Positions 3,020-64,000 of a DNA stretch of 64,000 nt are shown here, one piece after another. Source of the stretch: Gluconobacter sp. Gdi (GTDB lineage: Bacteria > Pseudomonadota > Alphaproteobacteria > Acetobacterales > Acetobacteraceae); the NCBI RefSeq assembly GCF_014132155.1, contig NZ_BLJQ01000002.1:186001-250000 (forward strand), in the 5' to 3' direction. A program made the translations under genes and the position numbers. The notes under the pieces are model-generated. The model ran no database searches and was not told the DNA's origin. It was given only the letters and a program-made list of their open reading frames with translations. Positions within the stretch are counted from its first letter, which is position 1. Each line of letters begins with the position of its first letter.

Positions 3020-3466
3020 ATGAAAAACCGTATTTTCTTCCGTTCGCTTCTTGCTGTCAGCCTGCTGACCGGTTCGGTTTCAGTAGCCTCCAAGGCCTAC
3101 GCAGCCGATCCGGCTGCAGCTACGCAGAGCACTCAGAATGACTTCCTTGGGAATCTTGCCCAGAAAGAAGACAATCTCAACAACCGCGTGAAGAACTACC
3201 AGACGCAATCTGCTGCGGCCCAAGCTGAGCGCACCCAGAAAATCCAGGCACTCAAAGACAAGTACGCGAATGCACCGGCCAACGAAAAAGCCAACATTCA
3301 GAACAAGATTAACAGCGAGCGTGACAAGCTGAATACAGCCCGTACCGCACAGACGGAAAAACTTCAGAAGCTGCGCAATGCGCCGCAGGAACAGAAGAAC
3401 CGTCTGAATGCACTGGGCAAGAAGAGCCGCAGCGATGCGACGAACTTCCTGAACGGCGGTCTCTGA
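3020..3466 (+). CDS. Small secreted alpha-helical (coiled-coil) protein, unknown function
   Basis: The 148-residue product has a typical Sec signal peptide (positive MKNR start, hydrophobic core, cleavage near AYA-AD, about residue 30). The mature part is almost entirely charged helix rich in Gln, Lys, Asn and Ala, with heptad-like spacing and no cysteine. I do not recognise a named family. A good Shine-Dalgarno (AGGAG) precedes the ATG at 3020, and a strong terminator follows. The gene lies 76 bp after fnr in the same direction and could share its transcript. A periplasmic or envelope-stress role is possible but not shown. Confidence 0.75.
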   Translation: MKNRIFFRSLLAVSLLTGSVSVASKAYAADPAAATQSTQNDFLGNLAQKEDNLNNRVKNYQTQSAAAQAERTQKIQALKDKYANAPANEKANIQNKINSERDKLNTARTAQTEKLQKLRNAPQEQKNRLNALGKKSRSDATNFLNGGL

Positions 3467-27865: not shown

Positions 27866-30454
27866 TCAGGCGTCGTCGATCGGACGTTTCGGGAGGAGCG
27901 CCGGTACGAAGAAGAGTGTGCAGATCAGTGTGCAGCCCAAAGACATGAGAAGCAGACGGCCCATGCTCGCAGTGCCCGGATGAGCAGATGTTGCTAGCGA
28001 TCCAAACGCCGTTGCTGTTGTAAGGGCAGAAAATAGAACAGCGCGTGCGGTCGGAGAGGTCAGCGGTCCCTTGATGCCTTCGCGCCAGTTCATCACGAAA
28101 TAGATATTGAAAGACACGCCAACCCCGAGAAGCAGGGGAAGAGCAATGATGTTGGCGTAATTCAGTGTCTCTGGAACCGTGACAATCAGGATGACAGTCA
28201 GGAGAGCCGAGAGCAGTAGCGGTGCCATGACAAGCGCTGCATCCAGAATGCGGCGCAGCACCACCAGAAGAATGATGCCGATCATGATCAGAGCCGAAAT
28301 GGCGGCAATCGTGAAGGCATGGACGATGGTGTTCGCGCTTTCGGTGATCTCCATGGCCGGCCCACTGATATCCGGATTGACCGAACGCAACTGGGACACA
28401 AACCTATGCATCACGGGCGTCTCGGAAATCTGTCCTTTGGGATGGATCGTCAGGCGCTGGCGACCATCAGGAAGTGCGTAATCCTTCCGAATATCGTCGG
28501 GGATATTGTCGATCGTGATGGGCTTCGGCTGAAGCGCCGTGCGGAGCATGGAGAGCTGATCCGGCAAAAAGCGTGTCAGGGCATGGCTGGCATTGACCAG
28601 TGTTGCGTCAGGGGCTGTCGAGAGCGTGTTGAGAGCCTGGCGGATTTTTTCCAGCGGTGCGGGGAGCTGATCTTTGACGCTGTCCAGTTTAGCCGCCGCT
28701 GCAATGGCAGAGGCCCGAATGGCCGCGGCATCCGGCGCAGGTAATGGGTCCTGAACGGTAATTGTCGGGAGAAGGATGGAAGCCGTGTCCTCGATCATAG
28801 CCAGTTTGTCGGTCTGATCATCCGGGACAAGCGCCCCCAGCCACAACACATCATGGACGCTCGACAGCTTGGAGAAAGCCGCCGCGTTCTTTGCCGCATC
28901 CTCAACATTCGGCACCAGAAGTTGAGCAAAATATGGGGTGGTGAGGGGATTATCTTCCAGAAGATGAAGGGCATGCATGCCCTCCGTGTTCGGGTTCTTC
29001 GTGTGGAGAGGATCTGCATCGAACTTCAGCAACGGCATCAGGGCAACGCCCACGACCCCGAGAAGTGCGAAGACGCCCACGACCTTTCTGCGCTTGTGAC
29101 GCAGCATGTGATCGACGGGCGCCATGAACGTGAAGCCGGGCTCACCTTTCCCGAGCTTCGCCCGGAAGAGCGTCAGCAGGGCCGGGAGCAGTGTCATGGT
29201 GCACAGGAAGGCAATCAGCATCCCGAACCCTGCAATCAGGCCCAACTGAGCAACGCCGATGAAGCTTGTCGGGGTGAAGGCCAGAAAGCCCGCAGCGGTT
29301 GCAAGTGACGCGACCAGAATCTGTGCGCCACTCTCCTGTCCAGTGAGAACGAGGGCGTCATGCAGAGACGGCATGGAGCCATCTTCGTTGCGCTGTCCCC
29401 GGAAGCGGACGCTGTACTGGATGGCAAAATCCACTGCAATGCCCACGAACAGGATCGCGAACGCCACCGAGATGAGATTGAGTTCCTTCACGCTAAGCGC
29501 AGCAAAGCCGGTCGTCAGCAGAAGGCCTGCAATCAGAGTCAGCAGAATGGGAACAATGACGCGGATGGAATGCACGGCCAGAACCAGCCAGAGTGCGACC
29601 AGAACCAGCGAAATGACCAGACCGAACACCATGCCATGGGCAACGGTCGAGAACTCTTCGTCGTTGAGCTTGACCTCGCCAGTAATGCTGCCGGTGGCCT
29701 GACCGGACTTTACGAATTCAAGGCTGTCGATCGCCTTGCGCATCGCCGTTGTGGCGCCCTCTCCGGGTTGAAGGGAGCTATAATCCAGCTTGGGCTTTGT
29801 GACGACGAATTCGTAGCGGCTGCCAAGCTCGGCCAGACGACCGACAAGAAGATTCTGCCAGGACAGATCCTGAGGCTGACCAGCCGCGGCCTTGGTCAGA
29901 GAGTCCGCAAAGCCGTCCAGAGCGCCGTTGAAGCCACTAGGAATGCCTTGCCCGGCCTTGATACCGTCCCCAATCAGGCCAAGGGCACCGAACAGGCCGC
30001 GGGCTGAGGGATCTGCTGCCAGAGTTCCAAGAAAAGGCTGGGCTGAAACGATGGAATCCAGAAGGGGTTCGAGGTCCTTCTTATCCAGAAACAGGAAGCC
30101 GTGACTGTTATAAAACGGATTATCGCCCGGCAGGCTGACCATTTCGAAGTGCGCATGGTCTTTGCTGAGTTCGGCAGCAAGGGCGCGGGCCGTGGCGCGT
30201 CCCTGTTCGGGGATGCGGCTGTCGATGATGGCGACGAGCTGATTGTCATCCTGCGGGAAGAGACGGTTCATCTCATCCGTCCGCTGTTTCCAGGGCAGGG
30301 TGCTGGCAAACATCTTGCCAGTATCAGTTGTCACACTCAGGCGCATGATACTCAGTGCGACACATCCCGCACAGAGGAGCGCAAACAGAACCACCACCAG
30401 TGGCGCACGACGTGCACAGGCGGCATTTAGCCGGCCGATCAGATCCGAAAACAT
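27866..30454 (-). CDS. hpnN: HpnN-type RND/MMPL hopanoid transporter
   Basis: The 862-residue inner-membrane protein has the RND layout: one N-terminal helix, a large periplasmic domain, five helices, then a repeat. It best fits HpnN, which moves hopanoids to the outer membrane in alphaproteobacteria. The early periplasmic stretch LSVTTDTGKMFAS and the helix-4-like FVGIAVDFAIQYSVRFRGQR support this. A matching C-terminal helix is LLLGVGVSFNIYFVMNWREG. Length fits HpnN. I chose the ATG at 30454. No other hopanoid gene is next to it, so a generic MMPL transporter remains possible. Confidence 0.8.
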   Translation of the reverse strand: MFSDLIGRLNAACARRAPLVVVLFALLCAGCVALSIMRLSVTTDTGKMFASTLPWKQRTDEMNRLFPQDDNQLVAIIDSRIPEQGRATARALAAELSKDHAHFEMVSLPGDNPFYNSHGFLFLDKKDLEPLLDSIVSAQPFLGTLAADPSARGLFGALGLIGDGIKAGQGIPSGFNGALDGFADSLTKAAAGQPQDLSWQNLLVGRLAELGSRYEFVVTKPKLDYSSLQPGEGATTAMRKAIDSLEFVKSGQATGSITGEVKLNDEEFSTVAHGMVFGLVISLVLVALWLVLAVHSIRVIVPILLTLIAGLLLTTGFAALSVKELNLISVAFAILFVGIAVDFAIQYSVRFRGQRNEDGSMPSLHDALVLTGQESGAQILVASLATAAGFLAFTPTSFIGVAQLGLIAGFGMLIAFLCTMTLLPALLTLFRAKLGKGEPGFTFMAPVDHMLRHKRRKVVGVFALLGVVGVALMPLLKFDADPLHTKNPNTEGMHALHLLEDNPLTTPYFAQLLVPNVEDAAKNAAAFSKLSSVHDVLWLGALVPDDQTDKLAMIEDTASILLPTITVQDPLPAPDAAAIRASAIAAAAKLDSVKDQLPAPLEKIRQALNTLSTAPDATLVNASHALTRFLPDQLSMLRTALQPKPITIDNIPDDIRKDYALPDGRQRLTIHPKGQISETPVMHRFVSQLRSVNPDISGPAMEITESANTIVHAFTIAAISALIMIGIILLVVLRRILDAALVMAPLLLSALLTVILIVTVPETLNYANIIALPLLLGVGVSFNIYFVMNWREGIKGPLTSPTARAVLFSALTTATAFGSLATSAHPGTASMGRLLLMSLGCTLICTLFFVPALLPKRPIDDA

Positions 30455-34905: not shown

Positions 34906-36468
34906 TCAGGCGGCTTTAAGGGGTAAAAAATTCCGTGCGTATTGCTTCAGGCGATCGTGAATACGTGCGAGTTCCGGCCCGTCTTCCAGCCTGGGGGCAC
35001 AATAGCGTGGAGGCTGTTTGGAAGTCTGCGGGTATAGATCATCGTATTCGCTAGCGTTGTGGAACATCCCGCGTGAGTTATCGTCCAGAAAGCTTTCTGA
35101 TGGTGCTCCCTCTGCGAGCAAGACGTCATGGCTTTCAAGCTCGATATGGATGTAGCGGATCTCTGAGGGTTTCTCGATCTGAAGAATAGAAAGGTCGTTG
35201 ACCAGATGAAGAGCCGGAATGAGGCGTCCGTCGATGAGCATCGCGTGCAGCGGGGAAACCATTAGATCCCGACGTGGCAGTCCGTCGCCAAGAGAACCCG
35301 CACGAAACAGAATAGGCAGGATATCCCGGTTTCCATAGGCAAAAATCGGATCATAGGCCCGCCGTCCGATCCAGCGGATTGGATGATGCTTTCCCGAGGC
35401 AGTGAGAACGATGTCGCCAATAGAAAGCTGTTCGACAGGCCGCTCTCCCTGTGGTGTCGCGATCAGGGTTCCGGGGCAATAGCAGGGCGTGCCGACAATC
35501 AGATCCAGTCCGTTTCCCGAAGGTGCAGTCTGGAAATAATAAGGAGAGGAAAAATCGTCTGCCACCCCAATGCTGTGCAGAACCTGGCCGCCAGACATGA
35601 TTTCCAGAGTAGAACCACTGGAGGGGCTGACGCTTCCGCCATTATGGACCAAAACGCCACTGACTGTAGATGCTGTATTTCCCAGGTCGGTAAAGCTGAT
35701 TGTCGTCTGAGCGTTATTCTTGAAAATTCCCGTTAGATTAGCGTTGTGATCCAGAATGATCGTTCCGCCATTGCCTGTAACGTTTGTGGCATTTTGGTCT
35801 GCACTAACGGATAGGACGCCCTTAACGCCTACTGTGACGTCCGAAAGCGTGCCGGATTTCTGAAGAACTGCGCCGCTTCCTATAGTGATATGGTCAGCGC
35901 TTCCTCCAGACAGGATCAGGGTTCCGCTTGCTGGTTGCTGACTGGAGCTTGTTATACCTACCGTTGCAGTGTGAAGTGTTCCACCATCGGAGACGATCTG
36001 TGTTGCTGCATACTGAGCATACTGAATCGTCATAAGGCCCCCGGAGGTCAGCCAGCCGCCACTAATATTGACGTTGTAGGAAATACCCCCGTTTTCGATA
36101 ATGGACGTCGCTAATGGGCCAAGCGTTGTATTACTGGCGAATGCTCCGGATTGAATGGTTTGGGTGGACGATTCAAAAACGAAGTGCTGCTCGCTGATCA
36201 TACCCCCGCCGCCTGGAAAACTTGTCCCGGAGATTATGGTGTTGAGTGCACCTGCAGAATTTTCGATAATCTGCGAGCCGGGAACGCCCGTATAATGAGG
36301 GAGCGCTGACCAGTCTGGAGATACGGGTGTGGAACTTGCTATGATTTTCGCGCCATCTACGACAGTCCCGCTTGTGACGACCTGTGATGTAGTGGAAGTC
36401 GAGCCTCCCGACACAATCGTGTATGTTTGTCCTGTCTGGGGGGATGTATAAGTGGACGAAGTTGCCAT
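34906..36468 (-). CDS. Hint-domain protein with AIDA-like Ser/Gly repeat region
   Basis: The 520-residue protein has an N-terminal half of ~20-residue imperfect repeats rich in Ser, Gly, Thr and Asn (repeating SGG, NGG, DGG turns), as in AIDA-type adhesin passengers. From Cys329 a Hint (hedgehog/intein, Hint_2 type) domain follows: CYCPGTLIATPQGERPVE, then LMVSPLHAMLIDGRLIPALH. No classical signal peptide or autotransporter barrel is seen, so export may use a non-Sec route. Hint domains can self-cleave; whether this one does is unknown. A paralogue is at 56430. The start is likely the Met at 36468. It is cotranscribed with a glycosyltransferase. Confidence 0.82.
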   Translation of the reverse strand: MATSSTYTSPQTGQTYTIVSGGSTSTTSQVVTSGTVVDGAKIIASSTPVSPDWSALPHYTGVPGSQIIENSAGALNTIISGTSFPGGGGMISEQHFVFESSTQTIQSGAFASNTTLGPLATSIIENGGISYNVNISGGWLTSGGLMTIQYAQYAATQIVSDGGTLHTATVGITSSSQQPASGTLILSGGSADHITIGSGAVLQKSGTLSDVTVGVKGVLSVSADQNATNVTGNGGTIILDHNANLTGIFKNNAQTTISFTDLGNTASTVSGVLVHNGGSVSPSSGSTLEIMSGGQVLHSIGVADDFSSPYYFQTAPSGNGLDLIVGTPCYCPGTLIATPQGERPVEQLSIGDIVLTASGKHHPIRWIGRRAYDPIFAYGNRDILPILFRAGSLGDGLPRRDLMVSPLHAMLIDGRLIPALHLVNDLSILQIEKPSEIRYIHIELESHDVLLAEGAPSESFLDDNSRGMFHNASEYDDLYPQTSKQPPRYCAPRLEDGPELARIHDRLKQYARNFLPLKAA

Positions 36469-36704
36469 GAACGATGTCACCCGAAAAATGTAGAGAATCC
36501 ATGGCAATATCCGTTCCTGTTTCAGGATATGGTATTTGCAGAATTCTTACTTGTATTTCTGATTCCCCCCTCGATTGGAGGGATGAAAGGAATGTAATAA
36601 TTCAATACGGGTTTTTTGAATGGGAGTGTCGGTAATAATTCGTTAATTTAACTGCTTTTTAGCAATTAAATGATGAATTTTTTCATGGATGAAGGCTTTT
36701 TACT
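36469..36704. other. AT-rich gap between radA and the Hint gene
   Basis: The 236-bp stretch is AT-rich and should hold the Hint gene promoter (minus strand). Short inverted repeats are visible, such as CCCTCCAATCGAGGG and ATGAATTTTTTCAT, but no classical terminator for radA. I see no gene in it. Confidence 0.5.
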
Positions 36705-38182: not shown

Positions 38183-38386
38183 CTAGTCGTCTGTTCGGAT
38201 GATGATGCGGGCCATGATGCGTGCAGCCGTTACGATCAGAAGCAGGATGAGCGCCTGAATAAGGATATTCTGGCTTTTGGGCGGGTGCATAAACAGAATG
38301 AACACCATCGGCAGCGCGATGAGATATGTCAGACCAAGACGCTGCCAGACTCTGCGGGAAATGGGAGGGCGTCGGAACGGCTTCAT
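38183..38386 (-). CDS. Small two-helix membrane protein downstream of mlaF
   Basis: The 67-residue protein has a basic N-terminus and two hydrophobic segments (about 18-34 and 41-61), so it is probably an inner-membrane protein. I do not recognise a family. Its start overlaps the mlaF stop by ATGA, which argues strongly that it is translated and tied to the lipid-transport genes. A role as accessory or regulator of that ABC transporter is inference only. Confidence 0.65.
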   Translation of the reverse strand: MKPFRRPPISRRVWQRLGLTYLIALPMVFILFMHPPKSQNILIQALILLLIVTAARIMARIIIRTDD

Positions 38387-39171
38387 TTGCGAAGTTCCAT
38401 GGTGATCGGTCCTTCCCGGCGTCCATGCGTGAACTGGTCCACCATTGCATTGCCTGAGTTCATCAGGTCTGCGGCCAGCCCCTGCCAGACCAGTTTGCCC
38501 TGGTAAAGCATGGCAGCCTGATTCCCGATCCGCTGCGCTGAAGCCATGTCATGCGTAATGGCGATAGCCGTTGAGCCCAGCTTTTGCACGCAATCCACGA
38601 TCAGTCCGTCAATGACGGCCCCCATGATGGGATCAAGGCCTGTAGTCGGTTCGTCGAAGAACAGGATGTTGGGCTGTCCGGCAATAGCGCGAGCCAGTCC
38701 GACGCGCTTTTGCATACCGCCTGACAGCTCAGAAGGGCTGAGCTGCCCAACGGAGGGGTCCAATCCAACCTGCTGGAGGATTCCGCCTGCCAGTTCACGC
38801 GCCTTGGATCGGGACGGAACTGGGCCGTCACGGTCTGAGTGCTTGGCCCGAAGCCCGAACGCAATGTTGTCCGCAACGCTCATGCTGTCGAACAGGGCGG
38901 CGTTCTGGAACAGCATGCCAATCTGTCGCCGCAGGACTTCCTGCCGCCCGCGTGGGGCAGTGAGAACGTTCTCGCCGTCAATTTCGATAGTGCCAGCATC
39001 GGGCTCGATCAGGCCAAGGATACACCGCAAAAGAACGGATTTTCCTGAGCCGGAGCCGCCAATGATGACCATGGAGGTGCCGGTCTCGACATCAAGGTCG
39101 ATCCCGTCGAGCACGACCTTGGAGCCGAACGCTTTCGAAAGGCCGCGGATGCGGATTTTGGGTGTGCTCAT
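38383..39171 (-). CDS. mlaF: Mla-type phospholipid ABC transporter ATPase
   Basis: The 262-residue ATPase would power phospholipid movement between the membranes for outer-membrane asymmetry. Motifs present are Walker A GGSGSGKS, signature LSGGMQKRVGLARAI, Walker B ILFFDEPTTGLDP and the switch histidine in AITHDMAS. It overlaps mlaE upstream by 4 bp and the small membrane protein downstream by 4 bp. No mlaD-type MCE gene is adjacent. Confidence 0.92.
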   Translation of the reverse strand: MSTPKIRIRGLSKAFGSKVVLDGIDLDVETGTSMVIIGGSGSGKSVLLRCILGLIEPDAGTIEIDGENVLTAPRGRQEVLRRQIGMLFQNAALFDSMSVADNIAFGLRAKHSDRDGPVPSRSKARELAGGILQQVGLDPSVGQLSPSELSGGMQKRVGLARAIAGQPNILFFDEPTTGLDPIMGAVIDGLIVDCVQKLGSTAIAITHDMASAQRIGNQAAMLYQGKLVWQGLAADLMNSGNAMVDQFTHGRREGPITMELRK

Positions 39172-39953
39172 TGGGAAAAGAACAGATCTGTGAGGAGGTA
39201 ATCAAACAGCAGAAGCAGAATGGAGGCGCCCACGACGGCCGCTGTGGTGGCTGAACCCACACCTTCCGCGCCGCCGCGGCTGTTATAACCGTGGTAGCAA
39301 CCCAGAAGAGCAATGAGGAAGCCGAAAGCCGCTGCTTTAACCAGACCGACCACTACGTCCATGGTCTTCAGCGAATCCAGCGTGGCCGTGATGTAGGTGG
39401 ATGGTGAAAAACCTAGTTTTGCGACCGATACGGTGAAACCGCCAAGAACACCCAGAACGTCCGCCACGATGACGAGACAGGGCAGGGCGATGGTTCCCGC
39501 CAGAAGACGTGGCGTCACCAGATATTTCATCGGGTTAGTCGATAGTGTCGTCAGGGCATCGATCTGATCGGTGACGCGCATAGTCCCGATCTGGGCAGAC
39601 ATTGCAGCACCGACACGTCCGGCAACCATCAGTCCTGCCAGAACCGGCCCCAGTTCGCGGGTGACAGCCAGAACCACAATCCCGGCAATGGCGCTCTGGA
39701 CGTGATACTGCCCAAACCCGACATAGGACTGCAAAGCGATGACGGCCCCGGAGAACAGGGCTGTCAGGGCCACAACCGGAAGGGAGAAGAACCCCGTTTC
39801 GATCAGCGTGGACAGGAAGATGCGCCAGTAGAACGGTGGCCGCACGAGATGCGACAGCCCTTCCAGCGCAAACATGGCGAGAGCACCCGACTGGCGGACG
39901 AGTCCGAGGACGGCACGGCCAAGGGCCGCTATGGGATCAAGAACGGCATTCAC
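39168..39953 (-). CDS. mlaE: MlaE-type lipid ABC permease
   Basis: The 261-residue inner-membrane permease has about five to six hydrophobic helices and the MlaE signatures ALFSGAVIALQSYVGFG, TRELGPVLAGLMVAGRVGAA and GTMRVTDQIDAL. It starts at GTG (39953). It heads a coupled mlaE-mlaF-small-protein series. The gap of 48 bp to the upstream psp-associated gene on the same strand leaves open that both sets share a transcript. Confidence 0.92.
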   Translation of the reverse strand: MNAVLDPIAALGRAVLGLVRQSGALAMFALEGLSHLVRPPFYWRIFLSTLIETGFFSLPVVALTALFSGAVIALQSYVGFGQYHVQSAIAGIVVLAVTRELGPVLAGLMVAGRVGAAMSAQIGTMRVTDQIDALTTLSTNPMKYLVTPRLLAGTIALPCLVIVADVLGVLGGFTVSVAKLGFSPSTYITATLDSLKTMDVVVGLVKAAAFGFLIALLGCYHGYNSRGGAEGVGSATTAAVVGASILLLLFDYLLTDLFFSQ

Positions 39954-40001: not shown

Positions 40002-41417
40002 TCAGGCGGAGCGTTCCAGGTCACGGAACTGGCGCTCCAGCGCAAAATCCGGGGAGGTTACGAACTGTTCCATGCGTGCCAACCTTGGCTCCATACGAGC
40101 CAAGCGGTCGTTCAGGCGCACCAGAGTATGGTTTGAACTGAAAGGTGTCGTCTCCGGGGCGTGGCGTTGCTTATGACGTGCGCTCTGATCCCTGGCTGTA
40201 TGAATAACCTCTTCATACAGATCGACAGCACGGCGTGTGTAATAGACATGTGGCGCATCGCCTGAGGATGATTGTCCTCCCGTGCGACGGTCAGCCATTC
40301 GTGTTTCCCAATTTCGTGTGAAAGCAGAAAGGCCTTCAGCAATATCGGTCCAGAGAGCACCAAAAAAGGATTGCCCAGTCCGTTTGCGATAACGCTTGGC
40401 GTGACGCAGGACTAGCCAGACGCAGACCACGATCAGAACAAGACGAAGGCCGCCCAGATGGTGGCCGTTGCTATGTTTGCCGAAAGAGCCAAGAGCCTCC
40501 CAGCCTTGCTGCGTGCCGGAATCGAAATTCACGGACTGACCGAGGCTGGCCAGAATGTCTTTTGCGATGGCCTGCCCGTCCACTGGCGCGGCTGCGCCGA
40601 CGTGAACTCCCGGGCTGGTCGTGTGAACCGTCAGGTCTCCGGAGCCATAATGACCGCGGGATAATGTTCCTGAAACACTATCGACCAGAACGTTCCCAGA
40701 GCCATAAAGTGACAGGCTGGCTGAGATGGCACTGACATGTGCTGTAATATCGGACGAACCGAGATCCCGAATGGAGAGGTTCTCTACTGAGCCACTCCTG
40801 AGCAGCATGTTTCCTGATGATGTCGCGGACAGCTCAACACGAGGTGCTGTTACCAGCCCGACAAGCAGGTCTCCGCTTGAGAAATTGAGAACGTGTACAT
40901 CGCCTGTCACCGTAGCAATGGAAACATTGCCGGATCCGGTCATCCGCAGATCCACACCCGTTGCGCTGTTGACGCGTACGTCACCGCTTCCGGACAAGCC
41001 GCTGAGATGGCCGGATGACCCTGTGACAGTGATGTCGGTCTTGTTGCCGCGGAGATGGATATTCGTCCCGGCTGGAACCTGAATTGTCGAGCTGGCTTCG
41101 GTGCTGCAGGACGGGTCACTCAGAGCAAGTTTGAGTGTCTTGTCCTCGGCGGCTGTCAGGTTGCCATTGCCCTGAAGAACCTTCGCTGTATCACCCTCAA
41201 CAATATGAAGGTCTGTCAGGCAGGTCGGTGCCAGTTCCAGCGTAGCTCCCGTGACGGAGCTTACACGTTCTGGACTTGCAAACGCTGGGGGCGCCGGGGG
41301 AGCAGGAATGGCAGGGGCTGCGTCCTGAGAGAGGGCCGGGCTGATCGTTCCTGTAGCAAGCAGGAGGCCGAGGATGCTCCCTGCAAAACGTACCAGATCG
41401 TGGGATATCTTCATCAT
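40002..41417 (-). CDS. PspC-tailed, toast-rack-like envelope protein of the psp locus
   Basis: The 471-residue protein sits where PspC is expected but is built differently. A signal-like N-terminus (1-30) leads to a large beta-repeat region (about 50-275). This region is full of short GSG/GDV turns such as SGSGDVRVNS, MTGSGNVSIAT and YGSGNVLVDS, as in DUF2807/DUF4097 toast-rack domains. One transmembrane segment follows (about 322-338), then a cytoplasmic part. The last 35 residues (RMEPRLARMEQFVTSPDF, then ERQFRDLE) closely match the C-terminus of E. coli PspC as I remember it. It overlaps the upstream beta-repeat gene by 1 bp. I infer a stress-sensing partner of PspA/PspB. Confidence 0.7.
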   Translation of the reverse strand: MMKISHDLVRFAGSILGLLLATGTISPALSQDAAPAIPAPPAPPAFASPERVSSVTGATLELAPTCLTDLHIVEGDTAKVLQGNGNLTAAEDKTLKLALSDPSCSTEASSTIQVPAGTNIHLRGNKTDITVTGSSGHLSGLSGSGDVRVNSATGVDLRMTGSGNVSIATVTGDVHVLNFSSGDLLVGLVTAPRVELSATSSGNMLLRSGSVENLSIRDLGSSDITAHVSAISASLSLYGSGNVLVDSVSGTLSRGHYGSGDLTVHTTSPGVHVGAAAPVDGQAIAKDILASLGQSVNFDSGTQQGWEALGSFGKHSNGHHLGGLRLVLIVVCVWLVLRHAKRYRKRTGQSFFGALWTDIAEGLSAFTRNWETRMADRRTGGQSSSGDAPHVYYTRRAVDLYEEVIHTARDQSARHKQRHAPETTPFSSNHTLVRLNDRLARMEPRLARMEQFVTSPDFALERQFRDLERSA

Positions 41418-42628
41418 CAGCCTCCCTGTTTTGGTGTATCGCCTTGAGGCGGCATGACTGGAGCTGTTGGCGTCGAAGGAGCAGGCGGCGGTGCCACAGT
41501 GTCCGGAAGGGGAGTCTGCGGCAGCTTCTGAGGAGTTTCCGACGGCGTCGTGGGGACATTGACTGAGGGTGTCTGCTGTGTCGGGGTGGGGGTACTTGGT
41601 ACGACGGCAGCCGGGGGTGATGCGGCGACAACAGGAGGTTGAACGGCTTCCTGTTCCTGCTGAGCCGGTTTCTGAGGCACTGGTGCCGGTGTCGGTGGCG
41701 CGGATGTTGATGGAGCCGGAACAGAAGGCTGGCTGATCTGCGGAGACGTTTCTGTTGAGGCTGGCGGCTGAGGAGCCGGCACCGAAGCTTTGGGAACGGG
41801 CGGAGGAGCGACTGGTAGCGTCGTCGTAACTGGTGGTGCGGCCGGTGCCACGACAGTCGGCGGCGGAGCCACTGCCGCCGGGGTTCCGACATTTACCGCG
41901 CCACTGCCAGACCGAACGATCGGGCCGGAGACGCGCTCAATATTGACGGCGCCTGTGCCGTTGGCTGTCACCGTTGCAACGGAAGCGTTGCCATGAACGG
42001 TGGCGGTCGCATTGTCTGACGTCACGATCGTCAGGGCTTCGATACTACCCTGCGAAACCATGAAAGAGGCGTCGTTCGACAGTTGTGCAGATAGAGCGGT
42101 CAGCTGTGCAGAGTCGGCGATCAGCGTTGATGTGCCGGAAGCCACGATCTGGGCCGCCCGTTCGAGAGAGCCGATATGCACACTGGAGGCACCATGCATG
42201 CTCAGATCAAGGGACTGCGTATTCTCGATATCCATTGTCGCGGAGTCGAGGCTGGCATCAAGGGACGCCAGTTTTCCTTTGATGATGAAATGTGTGTCAT
42301 GGCTGTCATGGATTGAGACGCCAGTATAAGGCGACACACTGATCGTGACCTTACCATTGGGCGCGCAACTTTTCGTGGCGATGGAGATGCGGCTGTCTGA
42401 CTCTTCCTTGCCGCTGCGCATCGTTACCTGCGTTGCATTGCTGCTGTCTAAAGTAGCGCCGTCTTTCATGCCTGGGTCTACGACGATCCGCACCTGACCT
42501 GTGCAGGGAATCGCCATATCCAGATCAGATCCGGACATGGTGACGCGCGCGGCCTGAGCCGGGTAGGCAGAAACTGCTCCTGTCAGCATGGACAGCAGCA
42601 GCATGCGCAGGGCGGTGCGGGATGTCAT
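41417..42628 (-). CDS. Secreted beta-repeat (toast-rack-like) protein with proline-rich tail, psp locus
   Basis: The 403-residue protein has a signal peptide (about 1-26, PAQA-AR). A beta-repeat domain to about residue 245 resembles DUF2807-type domains (repeating strands such as LDLSMHGASSVHIGSL and ATVTANGTGAVNIERV). A ~150-residue tail of Pro, Ala, Thr, Val and Gln follows. There is no membrane anchor after the signal, so it is periplasmic; the tail could span or bind peptidoglycan. It overlaps pspB by ATGA upstream and the PspC-tailed gene by 1 bp downstream. It is probably a paralogue of that neighbour's sensor domain. Confidence 0.7.
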   Translation of the reverse strand: MTSRTALRMLLLSMLTGAVSAYPAQAARVTMSGSDLDMAIPCTGQVRIVVDPGMKDGATLDSSNATQVTMRSGKEESDSRISIATKSCAPNGKVTISVSPYTGVSIHDSHDTHFIIKGKLASLDASLDSATMDIENTQSLDLSMHGASSVHIGSLERAAQIVASGTSTLIADSAQLTALSAQLSNDASFMVSQGSIEALTIVTSDNATATVHGNASVATVTANGTGAVNIERVSGPIVRSGSGAVNVGTPAAVAPPPTVVAPAAPPVTTTLPVAPPPVPKASVPAPQPPASTETSPQISQPSVPAPSTSAPPTPAPVPQKPAQQEQEAVQPPVVAASPPAAVVPSTPTPTQQTPSVNVPTTPSETPQKLPQTPLPDTVAPPPAPSTPTAPVMPPQGDTPKQGG

Positions 42629-42867
42629 CGTGAACTCCTAGCTCTCCAGCCCGGGATATCCTCGTCGAGGATGCGTTCGAGCTGGTCGATCCTTTCTTCC
42701 AGACGCGTAGCATGGGCCTCGGCCTGTGTCAGGGCAGCCTGCAGATGTGGGTCTGCGATGCCTTGATTGGGAAGGTTGCCCGTCCGGGCACGCAACAGGC
42801 GCGGGCCTAGGACGAGCGCCGGGATAAAGCCAAAAAGCAGGACAAGAGCGACGATATCCTCATTCAT
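42625..42867 (-). CDS. pspB: PspB-like membrane protein
   Basis: The 80-residue protein has one N-terminal transmembrane helix (about 5-23) and an amphipathic cytoplasmic helix with leucine-heptad spacing (AHATRLEERIDQLERILDED), as in PspB. It follows pspA by 25 bp and overlaps the next gene by ATGA. PspB with PspC relays envelope damage to PspA. Similarity is in architecture and position more than in exact residues. Confidence 0.75.
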   Translation of the reverse strand: MNEDIVALVLLFGFIPALVLGPRLLRARTGNLPNQGIADPHLQAALTQAEAHATRLEERIDQLERILDEDIPGWRARSSR

Positions 42868-42892
42868 GACTCAGACTTTCTTGCAGCAGTCA

Positions 42893-43576
42893 TCAGGCTT
42901 CGCGCTTCTTTTCCGCAATCCGGCGTTTCAGAGTCTCGAATTCATCTTCTACTGCTGCATCCGTTTCCAGAGCGGCCAACTCTTCGTGCAGGGAGGGGCG
43001 ACCAGACCGACGTCCCAGATCATAGGCCTCGGCTTTGCCTTCCAGTTCATCCAGAGCGCGCTCGACCTGTTCGAAACGGTTCAGCGTGTCGTCAATGCGG
43101 GTATCGTAGAGCTTTTCACGTGTCTTGAGGCGGCCTTCTGCCGTGCGGGCACGCATGGTCAGGGTTTTCTCACGGGATTTCGCATCCGCCAGTTTGGCCT
43201 GAAGCTTGGTGATGTCGTCGTTCTGTTGCTCAAGACCTTCCGTGACCTGTGCAATCTGGCGCTCAAGCCCTTCGCGGGACTGTTCGACCGTGTGACGGGC
43301 TGAGAGCGCCGCCTTGGCCAGATCGTCCCGGTTGCGTTCGATGGCCAGTGTGGCTTTGCGGTGCCATTCGTCTTCTTCGTGCATCATGGTGCGCACGCGG
43401 CGTTCAAGCTGTTTGCGCTCGGCGATGGTGCGGACGGCCTGACTGCGCACTTCAACGAGCGTGTCTTCCATCTCCTGAATCACGAGACGGATCATCTTCT
43501 GCGGATCCTCGGCCGTGGCGAGAATCGCATTGAGATTGGAGTTCACGATATCGGCGAGCCGAGAAAAAATACCCAT
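42893..43576 (-). CDS. pspA: Phage shock protein A (PspA/IM30 family)
   Basis: The 227-residue coiled-coil protein begins MGIFSRLADIVNSNLNAIL, the PspA membrane-binding helix, and continues with the family stretch DPQKMIRLVIQEMEDTLVEV. It binds the stressed inner membrane and, in enterobacteria, inhibits PspF. The ATG at 43576 has AGGAAAG upstream. The gene is divergent from pspF across 112 bp. Confidence 0.95.
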   Translation of the reverse strand: MGIFSRLADIVNSNLNAILATAEDPQKMIRLVIQEMEDTLVEVRSQAVRTIAERKQLERRVRTMMHEEDEWHRKATLAIERNRDDLAKAALSARHTVEQSREGLERQIAQVTEGLEQQNDDITKLQAKLADAKSREKTLTMRARTAEGRLKTREKLYDTRIDDTLNRFEQVERALDELEGKAEAYDLGRRSGRPSLHEELAALETDAAVEDEFETLKRRIAEKKREA

Positions 43577-43688
43577 GACGCTTTCCTTCCTGAGAACTGG
43601 ATTAGAGCACAATGACCTGTCTTGTCAGCGGGCTCGTTTTGGGGATGTTATGGTTGTGACAATCTGAAGTGGCGAACGAGGCTCAGAA

Positions 43689-44741
43689 ATGGCGAGATCC
43701 ACCCAAGCGGACGAGGTTCCGACACCCATCGGGCGGGCTCCGGCATTTCTGGCGATGCTGGACCAGATCTCCCGTCTTGCTCCCCTGAAGCGCCCCGTTC
43801 TGGTGATCGGAGAGCGCGGGACTGGCAAGGAGCTGGTGGCCGCCCGCCTTGCTCTCTTGTCGGATCGTTGGGACGCACCTTTGGTCAAGCTGAACTGCGC
43901 GGCTCTTCCGGAGGCGCTGTTGGACAGCGAACTGTTCGGACATGAGGCTGGCGCGTTTACGGGTGCGCAGAAGCGGCGTTTGTCCCGGTTCGAGCGTGCG
44001 GACGGCGGAACGCTGTTTTTGGATGAAATTGGCACGGCCTCCCTTGCCGTTCAGGAAAAACTGCTCCGCGTTATCGAGTACGGCAGCTTCGAACGCGTTG
44101 GCGGCAGTGAGACGATCCGCGTTGATGTGCGCTTGATTGGTGCGACCAACGCTGATCTTCCGGCCATGGCGCGGGACGGAACATTCCGCCCGGACCTGCT
44201 CGACCGACTGGCATTTGATGTGGTCAATGTCCCGCCTCTGCGAGCCCGGCAGGACGATATTCCCCTGCTGGCCGACCATTTTGCGACGCGGATGAGCGCG
44301 GAGCTTGGCCGTAAGCTTTTTGCCGGGTTTTCCCAGAAGGCTTTGCAGCGGCTGATTGACTACCACTGGCCCGGCAACGTCCGTGAGCTTCGGAATGTGG
44401 TGGAGCGCAGCGTGTATCGTATGGATCAGCCTGAGCGCCGTCTGGATGAGATTGTGCTTGATCCGTTCGTCACGCCTGACTGGAGCAGTGTGATGGCTCC
44501 AGCCTCTACCGGGGAAGGTCATGTTCAGGGAGACGTTCCCCAAACCTTCCCGCTGGATTTTGCTGAGACAGTTAAAGGTCATGAACGTGCGTTGCTGGAA
44601 GCGGCCCTCAAGGAGGCGCAGTTCAGCCAGCGGCAGGCCGCAGATCTTCTGGGGCTGACTTATTATCAGTTCCGCCACCACCTGCGGCTGCACGGTCTGG
44701 CCGACAAGGAAGCGCGGAAGGCCCTGACCAAAAAAGGATGA
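43689..44741 (+). CDS. pspF: PspF sigma-54-dependent activator
   Basis: The 350-residue AAA+ enhancer-binding protein has no N-terminal receiver domain, as in PspF. Walker A is GERGTGKE (41-48), the sigma-54-contact loop is GAFTGA (88-93), Walker B is GGTLFLDE, and the arginine-finger region is RPDLLDRLAFDVV. A Fis-type helix-turn-helix lies at the C-terminus (RQAADLLGLTYYQFRHHL). It should activate the divergent psp operon and be held off by PspA. I found no exact GG-N10-GC sigma-54 promoter in the gap. Confidence 0.92.
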   Translation: MARSTQADEVPTPIGRAPAFLAMLDQISRLAPLKRPVLVIGERGTGKELVAARLALLSDRWDAPLVKLNCAALPEALLDSELFGHEAGAFTGAQKRRLSRFERADGGTLFLDEIGTASLAVQEKLLRVIEYGSFERVGGSETIRVDVRLIGATNADLPAMARDGTFRPDLLDRLAFDVVNVPPLRARQDDIPLLADHFATRMSAELGRKLFAGFSQKALQRLIDYHWPGNVRELRNVVERSVYRMDQPERRLDEIVLDPFVTPDWSSVMAPASTGEGHVQGDVPQTFPLDFAETVKGHERALLEAALKEAQFSQRQAADLLGLTYYQFRHHLRLHGLADKEARKALTKKG

Positions 44742-44847
44742 ACGCAGTTTCATACCTGGGTTCATGCATGAAGTGTGCCAGATTTTGTGGTGTAGGGATT
44801 TTCAGGAATGATGCCGTTTGGAGGGTGAGTCATTTGCGGGAAATTTG

Positions 44848-44929
44848 ACCATTAATTGGTAAATCAGGCCAAAAACTCTAACGCGCTTCAATCGATGAGA
44901 AATGCTCAATTAAACCATTTAATATGGTT
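44848..44929. promoter_or_regulatory. Paired ACCAT/ATGGT-type inverted repeats upstream of cysH
   Basis: The 284-bp AT-rich gap before cysH holds two related palindromes: ACCATTAATTGGT (44848-44860) and AACCATTTAATATGGTT (44913-44929). They lie 65 bp centre to centre, a spacing compatible with DNA looping or a dimer-of-dimers regulator. No known cys regulator site is matched, so this is a candidate only. I see no gene in the gap. Confidence 0.35.
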
Positions 44930-54551: not shown

Positions 54552-56306
54552 ATGACCAAGATCTGTGGCGATGCTTCCGAATTCGCAGCCTCGGCCCTGC
54601 ATGGATACAGCATGGTGCATCGAGACCTTGTCAAAATGGTCCGGGGTGGTGTTGTGCGCGCCAAACTGGGTTCAAAAGGCAAGGTGGCTGTCGTCGTGGG
54701 GGGAGGATCAGGGCATTATCCCGCATTCATCGGGTATGTGGGAACTGGTTTTGCAGATGCGGCCATTGCTGGAGATATCTTTGCGTCTCCGTCAACACAG
54801 GCCATTCAAAGCGTCGTGCGTCAGGCTGATCTCGGAGGAGGCATTCTTCTGGGCTTTGGCAATTATGCTGGAGATGTTCTGAACTTTGGTATCGCTGCCG
54901 ACAGGTTGCGGGCAGAGGGATATGACGTTCGCATTCTTGCAACCATGGATGACGTGGCCAGTGCGACAGAAAACGAGAGAGAGCGTCGGCGCGGTATTGC
55001 GGGTGATCTGACAATTTTCAAGATTGTGGGCGCTGCGGCGGAAGAAGGGCTGGATCTGGACTCTGTCGAGCAGATTGGTCACCGCGTAAACCGTCAGACA
55101 CGAACATTCGGCGTTGCTTTCGATGGCTGCACGCTGCCGGGCGAGGCAGACAAGCTGTTTCACGTTCCGAATGCCCGAATGGCGCTTGGGCTTGGTGTGC
55201 ATGGGGAGCCGGGGATCGGGGAGGAGAGCATTCCAACGCCGCAGGTCCTGGCACAGATCCTGCTGGAAAAAGTCCTAAGCGAACTGCCTGCCGGGGCATC
55301 CCGGCGTGTGGCTCTGACTCTCAACGGGTTGGGAAGCACGAAACAGGAGGAACTGTTTGTTCTGTGGGAAGCACTGGCGCCCCTGTTGGAAAAAGCAGGT
55401 CTGACGGCTGTAGCCCCTCTGGTTGGAGAATATGTCACCAGTCTTGATATGGCAGGCTGTTCACTGACCTTGACCTGGCTTGATGAAGAACTGGAGCGCC
55501 TCTGGTGTGCTCCGGTTGATACGGCTGCGTTGCGCCATGGCTTGATTGAAGAGGTAGGTACAACCTTCGAGGACGCGCCAGCCGAGACCAGCGTGACATA
55601 TATGAAATCGTCCACAGCAGAAGGGCGGCGAGGCGGTCAGTGCGTCTCGGGAGTTATGATCACCTTGGCCGAGGCTCTTGCCGCGGCAGAAACTGAACTG
55701 GGTCATATCGATGCGGTGGCAGGAGATGGAGATCATGGTCAGGGAATGGCCCGCGGTTCGGCTGCTGCCAAAGCCGCGGCCGCCAGAGCCGCGACTTCAG
55801 GGGCTGGGCCTGCAACTACTCTTTCAGCAGCGGCAGATGCCTGGGCGGATCGTGCGGGCGGAACGTCTGGCGCTTTGTGGGGCGAGGGCCTGAGAGCTTT
55901 CAGTCTAGCGCTGGACGACAATGCGCTTCCTTCTTCAACGCAGCTTGCTCAGGGAGTAAGGCAGGCAATGGAGCGCATCATGTCTCTTGGGAAAGCCAAG
56001 CCTGGGGACAAAACCCTCATTGATGCTCTCGTGCCATTTGTGGAAATGCTTGAGCAGGAGCTTTCAGGTGGTGCGGCTCTGCCCGTTGCGTGGTCTAAGG
56101 CCGCCAATGCCTCACAAGCCGCCGCCGAGGCTACGAAAGATCTTCTCCCCCGCATGGGGCGCGCTAGAACCCATGGTGAAAGAAGCAAGGGTCACCCTGA
56201 TGCGGGGGCTCTTTCTCTCGCGCTTTGTGTCGGTGTGGTGGGAAAGGAACTGCAGACCCAGCTTCTTGAAGATGAGCAAAAACGCACAGTTTCTCTGGGG
56301 GAGTAA
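54552..56306 (+). CDS. DhaK-DhaL type ATP-dependent ketose kinase, probable erythrulose kinase
   Basis: The 584-residue protein joins a DhaK domain (about 1-330) and a DhaL domain (about 370-584), as in ATP-dependent dihydroxyacetone kinases. His217 in LGVHGEPG is the residue that binds the ketose covalently, Asp108 is in NYAGDVLNF, and DhaL has the Mg-binding GDGDHG. The active-site loop reads GHYPAF (His55) instead of the GHEPxH of true dihydroxyacetone kinases. That change is, from memory, typical of the tetrulose kinases LerK/DerK. With the TpiA- and RpiB-like genes this supports erythrulose as substrate. Dihydroxyacetone remains the main alternative. Confidence 0.85.
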   Translation: MTKICGDASEFAASALHGYSMVHRDLVKMVRGGVVRAKLGSKGKVAVVVGGGSGHYPAFIGYVGTGFADAAIAGDIFASPSTQAIQSVVRQADLGGGILLGFGNYAGDVLNFGIAADRLRAEGYDVRILATMDDVASATENERERRRGIAGDLTIFKIVGAAAEEGLDLDSVEQIGHRVNRQTRTFGVAFDGCTLPGEADKLFHVPNARMALGLGVHGEPGIGEESIPTPQVLAQILLEKVLSELPAGASRRVALTLNGLGSTKQEELFVLWEALAPLLEKAGLTAVAPLVGEYVTSLDMAGCSLTLTWLDEELERLWCAPVDTAALRHGLIEEVGTTFEDAPAETSVTYMKSSTAEGRRGGQCVSGVMITLAEALAAAETELGHIDAVAGDGDHGQGMARGSAAAKAAAARAATSGAGPATTLSAAADAWADRAGGTSGALWGEGLRAFSLALDDNALPSSTQLAQGVRQAMERIMSLGKAKPGDKTLIDALVPFVEMLEQELSGGAALPVAWSKAANASQAAAEATKDLLPRMGRARTHGERSKGHPDAGALSLALCVGVVGKELQTQLLEDEQKRTVSLGE

Positions 56307-62172: not shown

Positions 62173-64000
62173 ATGTTCCGATATAGCAATTATTTTCTTC
62201 TGTGCGGCACCGCTCTTGCCATGACGCTTTCCGTCTTTACGGCAACATCTGTCGCGGCCCCAATCACAAAGGGCGCAGTTCACAAACATGCGTCTCACCC
62301 CAAAGCTGGGACAACTGTAAAAAAGCCTGTGTTGTCTCCCGTTCAGCATAATCGCAAGGCCATGCAATCTTCGCAACCTGAGACGATTATGGTTCGGCAG
62401 ACGAGAAACGTGTTTGGGCAGGCGGCGAGACAGAAGCAGGGCGTTTCAGTCACTCATATCGATGCTGCGGATCTTGCAAGGCATCAGGTGACGGATGTTA
62501 AAGGTCTGATGAATCTTGCACCCAATCTCACAGTGCAGCCTCAAGGTGCGAGTTCCAGTGTCAATTTTACATTGCGTGGTGTGGGGTTAAATGATTTTAC
62601 CTCCAACAATACGCCATCCGTCATGACCTATGTGGACGGCGTAGCTTTGCCTATTGGATATATGGCAGGCGCTGCGATGTTTGATATGGCGGGTGTGGAT
62701 GTCACCAATGGGCCATCGGGTTACACGCACGGACAAACCGTGACAGCAGGTGAGATCAACGTTCAAACGGCGGACCCGACGAAGGCGCTTCACTATGGTG
62801 CGTCTGAAGACATTGCGACCTATAATCGCAGCATTACCAACCTTTACGTATCCGGCCCCATCACCTCCAACGTGCAATACCGGATTGCTGGTTTTACTCA
62901 GCAGGGGGGAGGCTTTCAGAAGAATATTAACACAGGCCAGACTTTGGGAAATGCCAACAAAGGCGGTTTGCGTGCAAAGGTTGCCTGGCAGCCTGACGAT
63001 AAGACGAACATCGTTTTTAGTGGGAACTGGATGCAGGATAATTCCCAGGCTACTGGCGTTTATAATATTCAGGACCTATCGAGAAATACGCCAGCTTACA
63101 GCAATAACAGGGATACCTCGTGGGGCTTTCGCCCGGAATTTCTCAAGTTGTCAGGCAATGAGGGACAGACCAAACCATCTTATAACAACACCTTCTGGGG
63201 GGCAGGCGTTAATATCACGCGGAACCTAGGATTTGCGAACCTGACAACCATTAGCGCATTCCAGCAGATGTACGTTCATAATCTCATGGATCTGGATGGC
63301 ACGCGCTATGCAATCTATGACGTGGACGTCAACACGAACGCCAATATGTTCTCTCAGGAGGTCAAGTTAGCATCGCGTAACTCACAGTCACGCCTTCAGT
63401 GGACGGTGGGGATGTATTATGACCGCACGCAAATGCGTTCTTCCATTTTTAATGATTATTCCCAGTCCGGGTCCCGGCCTTATGTGCAGCGGACCAGCTA
63501 TAATCAGGATCAGCAGGCGTTCAGTCAGTATGGCCATTTGCGCTTTGCCCTTACCAAGCGGCTGCATCTTCAGGCGGCCCTGACGCATGAATCCGATGAC
63601 CGTACGCTCTACAATATGCGGACTATGCGGTATAACACTCCGGCGTATCCAACGCCTTTTGACAACCGGTATGGCCGACATGGTGCTCTGACCAATCAGT
63701 TTTCCGGAATGGGTGGCATTGAATATCAGGCGTTCAATAATCTGATGTTTTATGGGTCAATTCGGAAAGGGTTCAAGCCGGGCGGGTTCACAGCCAACAA
63801 TACGGTTGTTGACTCGCAGCTTAATCCAACAAAGCCGGAATCCCTTCTGGCTTACGAAATTGGTTTTAAGTCCGACTATATGCATCATAAGCTGCGTATT
63901 AACGGCGATGCGTTCTGGTACGATTATCATAATCAGCAGATGGTTGGGCTAGCCGTTATCCCACGTTATGGCGTGGTCGGCCAGTACGTCAACATTCCCA
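62173..64000 (+). CDS. TonB-dependent outer-membrane receptor, C-terminus cut by window edge
   Basis: The open frame runs from an ATG at 62173 (GGGGAG upstream) to the window edge, 609 codons without a stop. It has a signal peptide (about 1-27), a basic His/Lys/Pro linker, a TonB-box-like TIMVRQTRN, and a plug with VNFTLRGVGLNDFTSNN and YVDGVALP. Barrel strands follow, such as FYGSIRKGFKPGGFTANN. The plug segment that usually reads GPQGTLFG is changed to GPSGYTHG. It follows the MFS gene and may bring the hydrolase substrate across the outer membrane. The ligand is unknown. Confidence 0.88.
   Translation, partial: MFRYSNYFLLCGTALAMTLSVFTATSVAAPITKGAVHKHASHPKAGTTVKKPVLSPVQHNRKAMQSSQPETIMVRQTRNVFGQAARQKQGVSVTHIDAADLARHQVTDVKGLMNLAPNLTVQPQGASSSVNFTLRGVGLNDFTSNNTPSVMTYVDGVALPIGYMAGAAMFDMAGVDVTNGPSGYTHGQTVTAGEINVQTADPTKALHYGASEDIATYNRSITNLYVSGPITSNVQYRIAGFTQQGGGFQKNINTGQTLGNANKGGLRAKVAWQPDDKTNIVFSGNWMQDNSQATGVYNIQDLSRNTPAYSNNRDTSWGFRPEFLKLSGNEGQTKPSYNNTFWGAGVNITRNLGFANLTTISAFQQMYVHNLMDLDGTRYAIYDVDVNTNANMFSQEVKLASRNSQSRLQWTVGMYYDRTQMRSSIFNDYSQSGSRPYVQRTSYNQDQQAFSQYGHLRFALTKRLHLQAALTHESDDRTLYNMRTMRYNTPAYPTPFDNRYGRHGALTNQFSGMGGIEYQAFNNLMFYGSIRKGFKPGGFTANNTVVDSQLNPTKPESLLAYEIGFKSDYMHHKLRINGDAFWYDYHNQQMVGLAVIPRYGVVGQYVNIP

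Follow-up and report, generated by a model that had tools for sequence, protein, structure and literature searches.

A toastrack protein with a PspC-like tail, probably a remodelled PspC, in a phage shock locus of Gluconobacter sp. Gdi with a sigma54-type site behind pspF

The 64,000-nucleotide (nt) stretch of Gluconobacter sp. Gdi DNA analysed here (contig NZ_BLJQ01000002.1, positions 186,001 to 250,000; further referred to as the window) contains a phage shock protein (Psp) locus, in which pspF is divergent from pspA, pspB, and genes of two toastrack proteins of 403 and 471 amino acids (aa), designated here as TR403 and TR471. Results of our analysis indicate that TR471 is likely to be a remodelled PspC, in which a periplasmic toastrack sensor would be joined to a retained signalling tail, and that TR403 would be linked to Mla. 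The features seen in the sequence that speak for this are the architecture of TR471, the homology of its tail, the key valine of this tail, the pairing of a PspB type with toastrack-tail genes, the absence of TR471 where psp genes are absent, and the sigma54-type sites. The original prediction of a phage shock locus with pspA, pspB, and a toastrack-transmembrane (TM) protein in the place of PspC is supported by profile matches over the cut-offs (TIGR02977, TIGR02976, and DUF2807). The genes of PspB and TR403 overlap by 4 bases and those of TR403 and TR471 by 1 base (Table 1). TR471 is 94% identical to a protein of G. cerinus NBRC 3267, which places the strain near G. cerinus.

The likeness of the C-terminal tail to the end of PspC, which had been recognised by eye, was recovered by profile: residues 427-467 of TR471 match positions 81-121 of the 121 positions of TIGR02978 (E 4.1e-7, 29.9 bits), and the score stays under the full-length cut-off of 104, as expected, because the tail alone matches. 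The PspC domain (PF04024) is absent from TR471, and no match to it over the cut-off was found in the Gdi genome, the best score (16.3 bits) being that of a 418-aa frame away from the locus, in agreement with the predicted absence of the usual PspC membrane domain. Thus, TR471 has three marks of the PspC family, namely the tail, a valine equivalent to V105 of Escherichia coli PspC, and a place next to pspB in a pspF-linked operon (with TR403 between), and lacks the fourth, PF04024. A profile built from 24 tails of toastrack proteins matches PspC of E. coli K-12 at E 2.7e-5 and 19 PspCs of Acetobacteraceae at E 1e-13 to 2e-8; among 20,000 shuffled decoys, the lowest E was 2.3. The invariant residues of toastrack tails (R445, E450, T454, F458, and L460) are spaced like R97, E102, T106, F110, and L112 of E. 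coli PspC, and the tail evolves slower than the remainder of the protein (identity of 88% vs. 35% in P0008, and of 78% vs. 31% in P0009). Judged by profiles and residue spacing, the tail similarity is beyond chance, and the C-terminus of TR471 is homologous to the PspC tail.

According to passages of PMC6003685, a change of V125 in Yersinia PspC abolishes the PspC-PspA interaction, and the V105D substitution in E. coli PspC abolishes PspC-dependent signalling. In the alignment, E. coli V105, the valine of the VTS motif, corresponds to V453 of TR471, and this valine is kept in 23 of the 24 aligned toastrack tails, the tail of the locus L063, with methionine, being the lone exception. Passages of PMC3068692 report that the E. 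coli fragment PspC69-119 together with PspB suffices for PspA binding and psp induction.

TR471 passes the Pfam cut-off of DUF2807 (27.2 bits, cut-off 24.2), and its DUF4097 score is just under the respective cut-off. The AlphaFold2 model of TR471 (mean predicted local distance difference test score, pLDDT, of 69.3, and predicted TM-score, pTM, of 0.52) comprises a beta-helix of about residues 59-274, in which most 10-residue blocks are at a pLDDT of 83-97, a long helix of residues 321-347, and lower-confidence helices of residues 351-379, 390-416, 430-453, and 456-470. A Foldseek search with this model returned DUF2807-type crystal structures at the top with a probability of 1.00, the best E value being 1.7e-3 and none being at or below 1e-3. 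TR403 is not recognised by Pfam DUF2807 (11 bits); its predicted model shows this fold as well, the Pro-rich end being of low confidence, and matches the structures 3ljy_B (E 1.6e-5) and 4qrk (E 7.1e-6). Cysteines C42 and C88 of TR403 and C104 of TR471 are invariant. Signal peptides and topology of both proteins were read from sequence and hydropathy. Since TR471 has a signal-like N-terminus, an invariant cysteine, and a basic stretch after the TM helix, its toastrack is probably exported to the periplasm and its tail is probably cytoplasmic.

As TR471 keeps the end of PspC and replaces the rest, it may be seen as a PspC with periplasmic input. The N-terminal membrane domain of PspC would have given way to an exported toastrack beta-helix with a single TM helix, the cytoplasmic tail being kept, and TR471 would form a membrane switch together with the PspB type that accompanies it. 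When the toastrack senses some periplasmic state, the tail would be freed and would bind PspA, and PspF would be released, upon which sigma54 transcription would begin. In this course of events we infer export and topology, the contacts of the tail with PspB and PspA (transferred from studies of E. coli and Yersinia), the signal, and the transcription. A periplasmic sensor feeding the PspA/PspF switch, as originally suggested, stands as the likeliest role of TR471; the switch itself appears to be wired differently than supposed, because the sigma54 site lies behind pspF.

Among the 299 Acetobacteraceae genomes of our sample, 44 contain pspA. In 30 of them, a PspC match with its start at one of the first 13 model positions is located next to pspA (in G043, this match is limited to positions 12-60), and in the other 14 only the C-terminal part is matched (from position 35 in G048, and from position 74 or later in the rest), in long toastrack frames. 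We read 15 toastrack loci (13 from the sample and those of G. cerinus and G. frateurii) with the arrangement pspF / pspA pspB TR403 TR471, seven of which carry two TR471-type genes; the gene order beside pspAB is therefore conserved, as had been anticipated, in 15 further Acetobacteraceae loci, and neither of the two outcomes named at the outset as contrary to the original prediction was obtained. These loci together with the window are further referred to as the 16 toastrack operons. Searches with single proteins covered 14 related proteins only, and the genome-contig scan with a single protein covered two named loci.

Six genomes carry pspB2 and an adjacent toastrack-tail gene that are unlinked to pspA (L055, L057, L059, L061, L064, and L065; L059 contains N). 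Four of them also have pspFABC, and no pspA was found in the remaining two, G128 and G145, which are 85% and 66% complete. The operon PspCs of L054, L056, L058, and L060, which are from genomes with an unlinked pair of pspB2 and toastrack-tail gene, have by eye lost the VTS motif, which looks as if the unlinked toastrack-tail protein had taken over the binding of PspA. In eight other loci (L047-L053 and L072), pspABC are followed by a separate, tail-less toastrack gene, and a TM segment near the N-terminus of its product passes the hydropathy threshold in five of the eight. An extra divergent PspA homologue (83.8-87.3 bits) accompanies the operon pspA in G153, G196, and G263.

A tail match was obtained in 37 of 385 alphaproteobacterial genomes, with one locus read per genome. 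No toastrack fusion was seen in any of the 35 tail-bearing genomes outside Acetobacteraceae, few genomes per family being included, so that rare fusions could escape. These 35 genomes encode PspC or PspC-like proteins, one match (L127) being chance-looking. In two of them, a 78-80-aa TM protein with a terminal PspC tail is encoded beside pspC (L094, 1495-1731, minus strand; L095, 1354-1596, plus strand), and thus the PspC tail can be found as a separate module, too; in L094, another PspB-like open reading frame (ORF), of 73 aa (1242-1463), comes next.

In the tree of PspB proteins (83 columns, with weak inner forks and with groups named by locus type beforehand), PspBs of the 16 toastrack operons share one clade (99/94) with the seven PspBs of toastrack-tail loci that are free of pspA. 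Four of the genomes with the latter loci also encode a pspABC PspB; a grouping of these four with the seven was rejected by the approximately unbiased test (p-AU 5e-5), as was their joining with the 16 toastrack-operon PspBs (p-AU 7e-5). PspAs of the toastrack operons also form one clade (100 in the SH-like approximate likelihood-ratio test, SH-aLRT). The PspB tree indicates that the PspB type and toastrack-tail genes travel together.

The genes mlaE and mlaF follow the last toastrack gene in all 15 toastrack loci and in the window. In canonical loci, i.e., those with pspABC, mlaE was not seen beside psp genes, several of the stretches being short, and neither a psp nor a toastrack gene precedes mlaE in any of the 11 canonical-pspC genomes with sequence there (about 1.5 kb); L144 and L145 have no sequence upstream of mlaE, and the distant mlaE paralogues L146-L148 were not counted. 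TR403 occurs in 36 of the 299 genomes, 22 of which are without pspA. From the latter, 16 loci as well as L063/L156 were read, and G030, G066, G116, G118, and G170 were left out. In each of the 16 psp-less loci, TR403 is an uninterrupted frame immediately upstream of mlaE-mlaF (at a distance of at most 218 nt), and no match of TR471, pspB, pspA, pspF, or the tail was found in the stretch. In-frame stops were listed in some TR403 matches by the genome scan; in the 16 loci that were read, the match ran past the end of the frame. Since psp-less loci keep TR403 and mlaEF without TR471, TR471 seems to go with psp and TR403 with Mla. The proposed role of the 403-aa protein as a dedicated partner of the sensor had to be abandoned for this reason, and TR403 is best read as an Mla-linked toastrack protein, independent of Psp, with a place in the same operon.

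The second peculiarity of the toastrack operons concerns their sigma54-type site. We scanned for sigma54 sites by a weighted match to the consensus TGGCACG-N4-TTGCW, with a threshold of 17 that was set after the first scores had been seen. The site of E. coli pspA, used as a positive control, scored 17.9 of 19.9, and the scan of all fetched loci (1.21 million strand-bases) gave 152 sites of at least 17, a number that includes the psp sites. A site lies upstream of pspA in 27 of 30 canonical loci (7/8, 4/4, 12/13, and 4/5 by group); in the four pspABC loci of genomes with unlinked pspB2, it was found 288-329 nt upstream by a scan of the whole intergenic region. In contrast, none of the 15 other toastrack operons has such a site directly before pspA, nor has the window, and in all 16 a site facing pspA lies 31-51 nt past the pspF stop. 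Within 60 nt behind pspF, no site was found in 28 canonical Acetobacteraceae loci (L066 and L082, without a pspF match in the stretch, were left out of this count); more distant sites behind pspF are present in L076 (at 230 nt) and in E. coli (at 250 nt). In the unlinked pspB2 loci, a site precedes pspB2 by 49-135 nt in six of six. As the window contains the pattern five times vs. 1.06 times expected, single matches are not a proof, and the case for the site comes from its fixed position in 16 loci, among which near relatives are not independent. The other four matches in the window are at 9204-9219 and 28212-28227 (minus strand), and at 55249-55264 and 63297-63312 (plus strand).

Both RpoN and PspF are encoded in the Gdi genome. 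We rejected the view that rpoN is retained for psp alone, as rpoN is present in 44 of 44 genomes with pspA but also in 202 of 255 without it; in G008, the DNA-binding domain of RpoN was matched in two separate pieces (C1:720243-720815). A palindrome TGGC-N7-GCCA, a pattern chosen by eye, occurs with at least seven of eight positions in 12 of the 16 toastrack operons and 20 of 28 canonical loci (shuffle p of 0.00 to 0.15), and is no more than suggestive as a PspF-binding site. A 360-aa ORF that starts at the sigma54 site (43683-44765, minus strand) is antisense to all of pspF; it is probably a by-product of codon usage, because it is in register with pspF and, by our reasoning, a low frequency of TTA, CTA, and TCA codons would by itself be sufficient to keep it open.

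Given this location of the sigma54 site, transcription induced from it would first pass through pspF in antisense and only then arrive at pspA. We tentatively propose a self-limiting noncontiguous operon, in which PspF, held by PspA, would fire the sigma54 promoter behind its own gene, and each induced transcript would cross pspF in antisense before pspA-pspB-TR403-TR471-mlaEF, so that induction would cut the synthesis of PspF. The switch would be set by a periplasm-sensing PspC that couples in the envelope/Mla lipid state, and basal expression may be due to the conserved pspA-proximal element. It is conceivable, if somewhat doubtful, that the site behind pspF yields instead only a short RNA antisense to pspF, with pspA expressed from the proximal CTGACAAG element alone: TGACAAG precedes pspA in 11 of 16 toastrack operons, an element similar to it is present in L063, whose genome is without rpoN, and the sigma54 site is 1.2 kb from pspA. 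On the other side, no sigma70-type promoter match was found before pspA in a consensus scan, and sites of the same type lie directly before pspA in 27/30 canonical loci and before pspB2 in 6/6 unlinked loci, and hence belong there to the expression of psp genes.

The functional reading of TR471 has to be weighed with regard to L063, a locus of genome G022, in which no match of pspA or rpoN and no PspF over the cut-off were found. L063 keeps pspB-TR403-TR471, with mlaE-mlaF following, and the end of the TR471 tail, beyond the changed valine, is also altered. A stretch upstream of pspB, at about 3265-3430, is similar to the promoter region and the beginning of pspA: blastn against L041 gave 78% over 60 nt (E 3e-7), and tblastn with PspA gave an E of 0.007. 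No sigma54 site was found before pspB in a consensus scan. The occurrence of pspB and TR471 without detectable pspA is one of the points that weigh against our proposal, since the pair may therefore have another role. The others are that passages of PMC11237479 argue for an intracellular Toastrack and that the model of TR471 is of low confidence in the TM and tail parts. A point against the tail homology is that the tail profile matches divergent Acetobacteraceae PspCs weakly: those of L056, L069, and L074 at E 1e-4 to 4e-4, and those of L076, L078, L054, and L058 at only E 0.003 to 0.06; PspC of L060 and those identified for L075, L077, and L079 gave nothing convincing. As to the operon, a scan of low power detected no terminator-like site on the minus strand from the sigma54 site to pspA.

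It is unlikely, in our opinion, that TR471 acts as an anchor or effector whose tail would keep PspA and PspB in place at the membrane close to Mla, with neither sensing nor control of PspF. Such a role would be in line with the protection of Yersinia against secretins by PspB and PspC alone, reported in passages of PMC5596341, and with the gene content of L063; however, the methionine and the changed end of the L063 tail look as if contact with PspA was no longer needed there, and TR471 is missing from the 16 psp-less loci examined. Still less credible, to the point of being very improbable, is a chance coiled-coil match in place of a true PspC tail. The matched part is only about 40 residues long, and the C-termini of some PspBs weakly match the tail profile (E of about 0.4 and above), but the fixed residues correspond between toastrack tails and PspC, the TIGR02978 match (E 4e-7) is far from the best decoy value of 2.3, and the gene belongs to the immediate surroundings of pspB.

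Replacement of PspC by multiple Toastrack proteins in some Alphaproteobacteria (example ANQ40502.1) has been described in passages of Ravi et al. 2024 (PMC11237479). Their loci, with pspF / pspA pspB and then several Toastrack proteins, are very likely of the same kind as ours, and so the original impression of a previously unknown pair does not hold for the replacement itself; it may still hold for the retained tail, as those passages are without mention of the PspC tail, and likewise of the moved sigma54 site or the Mla link. They also describe PspCs with a divergent, PspB-like C-terminus. What is new here is the distribution of PspC vs. toastrack-tail proteins, the grouping of PspB, the kept valine, the moved sigma54 site, and the association with mlaEF and TR403. 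In the open-access literature, bioRxiv and most subscription journals not included, we found no further report of a toastrack-PspC or of psp in acetic acid bacteria, of antisense transcription of pspF, or of a Gluconobacter phage shock protein; the main text of the G. oxydans 621H RNA-seq paper (PMC5756330), as far as available, does not contain 'psp' or 'phage shock'.

TR471 shares with PspC of E. coli and Yersinia (TIGR02978) the tail with the V105 equivalent and the place after pspB in a pspF-linked operon, and differs from it by the lack of PF04024, by the signal-like N-terminus, toastrack, and single TM helix, and by the extra gene between. With the LiaG/LiaF-type DUF2807/DUF4097 Toastrack proteins it shares the fold and the link to a PspA system; unlike in those, the toastrack of TR471 precedes the TM helix and is probably located in the periplasm, and a PspC tail is at the C-terminus. 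Periplasmic location, if true, would qualify the statement that Toastrack is intracellular. According to passages of PMC3068692, conflicting data have led to a debate on whether the PspC tail is cytoplasmic or flips at the membrane. In a naturally occurring PspC whose N-terminal domain is probably exported and followed by a single TM helix, the tail would be held on the inner side, which would make this old question testable. The predicted periplasmic toastrack, in an operon adjoining the Mla phospholipid transporter genes, is also a candidate input of a Psp sensor. As in the noncontiguous operon described in the review PMC7154746, passages of which we follow here, an opposed gene lies, by sequence, between the promoter site and the operon genes in 16 of 16 toastrack operons; unlike there, the embedded gene is the operon's own activator, and the read-through is putative. 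The moved site thus provides a clear comparative case of a promoter-type site behind the gene of its own activator (before pspA, 27/30 vs. 0/15; behind pspF, 16/16 vs. 0/28).

Table 1. Features of the Psp locus in the window (positions of the window).
Feature	Position	Strand	Basis
pspA	42893-43576	-	TIGR02977, 282 bits (cut-off 243)
pspB, type accompanying toastrack-tail genes	42625-42867	-	TIGR02976, 53.4 bits (cut-off 51.7); PspB tree
TR403 (403 aa): signal-like N-terminus, toastrack fold, Pro-rich C-terminus	41417-42628	-	Model; 3ljy_B match; conserved C42, C88
TR471 (471 aa): signal-like N-terminus, toastrack beta-helix, one TM helix, PspC tail	40002-41417	-	DUF2807, TIGR02978, model
TR471 toastrack domain, about residues 59-274	40596-41243	-	Model; Foldseek
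TR471 helix 321-347 with predicted TM segment, then basic stretch	40377-40457	-	Model; hydropathy of G. cerinus orthologue
TR471 PspC tail, residues 427-467; V453 = E. coli PspC V105	40017-40139	-	Profile, alignment
pspF, divergent	43689-44741	+	TIGR02974, 504.8 bits
CTGACAAG element before pspA	43621-43628	-	TGACAAG exact in 11/16 toastrack operons
Sigma54-type site TGGCACACTTCATGCA, past pspF stop, facing back through pspF toward pspA	44765-44780	-	Consensus scan
Possible PspF-binding palindrome TGGCCTGATTTACCA, suggestive only	44857-44871	-	7/8 positions, shuffle p 0.02
mlaE, 48 nt after TR471	39168-39953	-	Pfam MlaE, 249.8 bits; conserved neighbour
ABC ATPase gene termed mlaF	38383-39171	-	Name from sequence and position, no profile

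The range of 40002-43576 originally assigned to the locus covers pspA, pspB, and the toastrack genes and leaves out two relevant features, the sigma54 site (44765-44780) and mlaE-mlaF (38383-39953). Elsewhere in the window, an ORF on the minus strand (34906-36507) encodes a 533-aa protein with a repetitive N-terminal part and, by eye, a Hint-type domain-like region (CYCPGTLIATPQG...).

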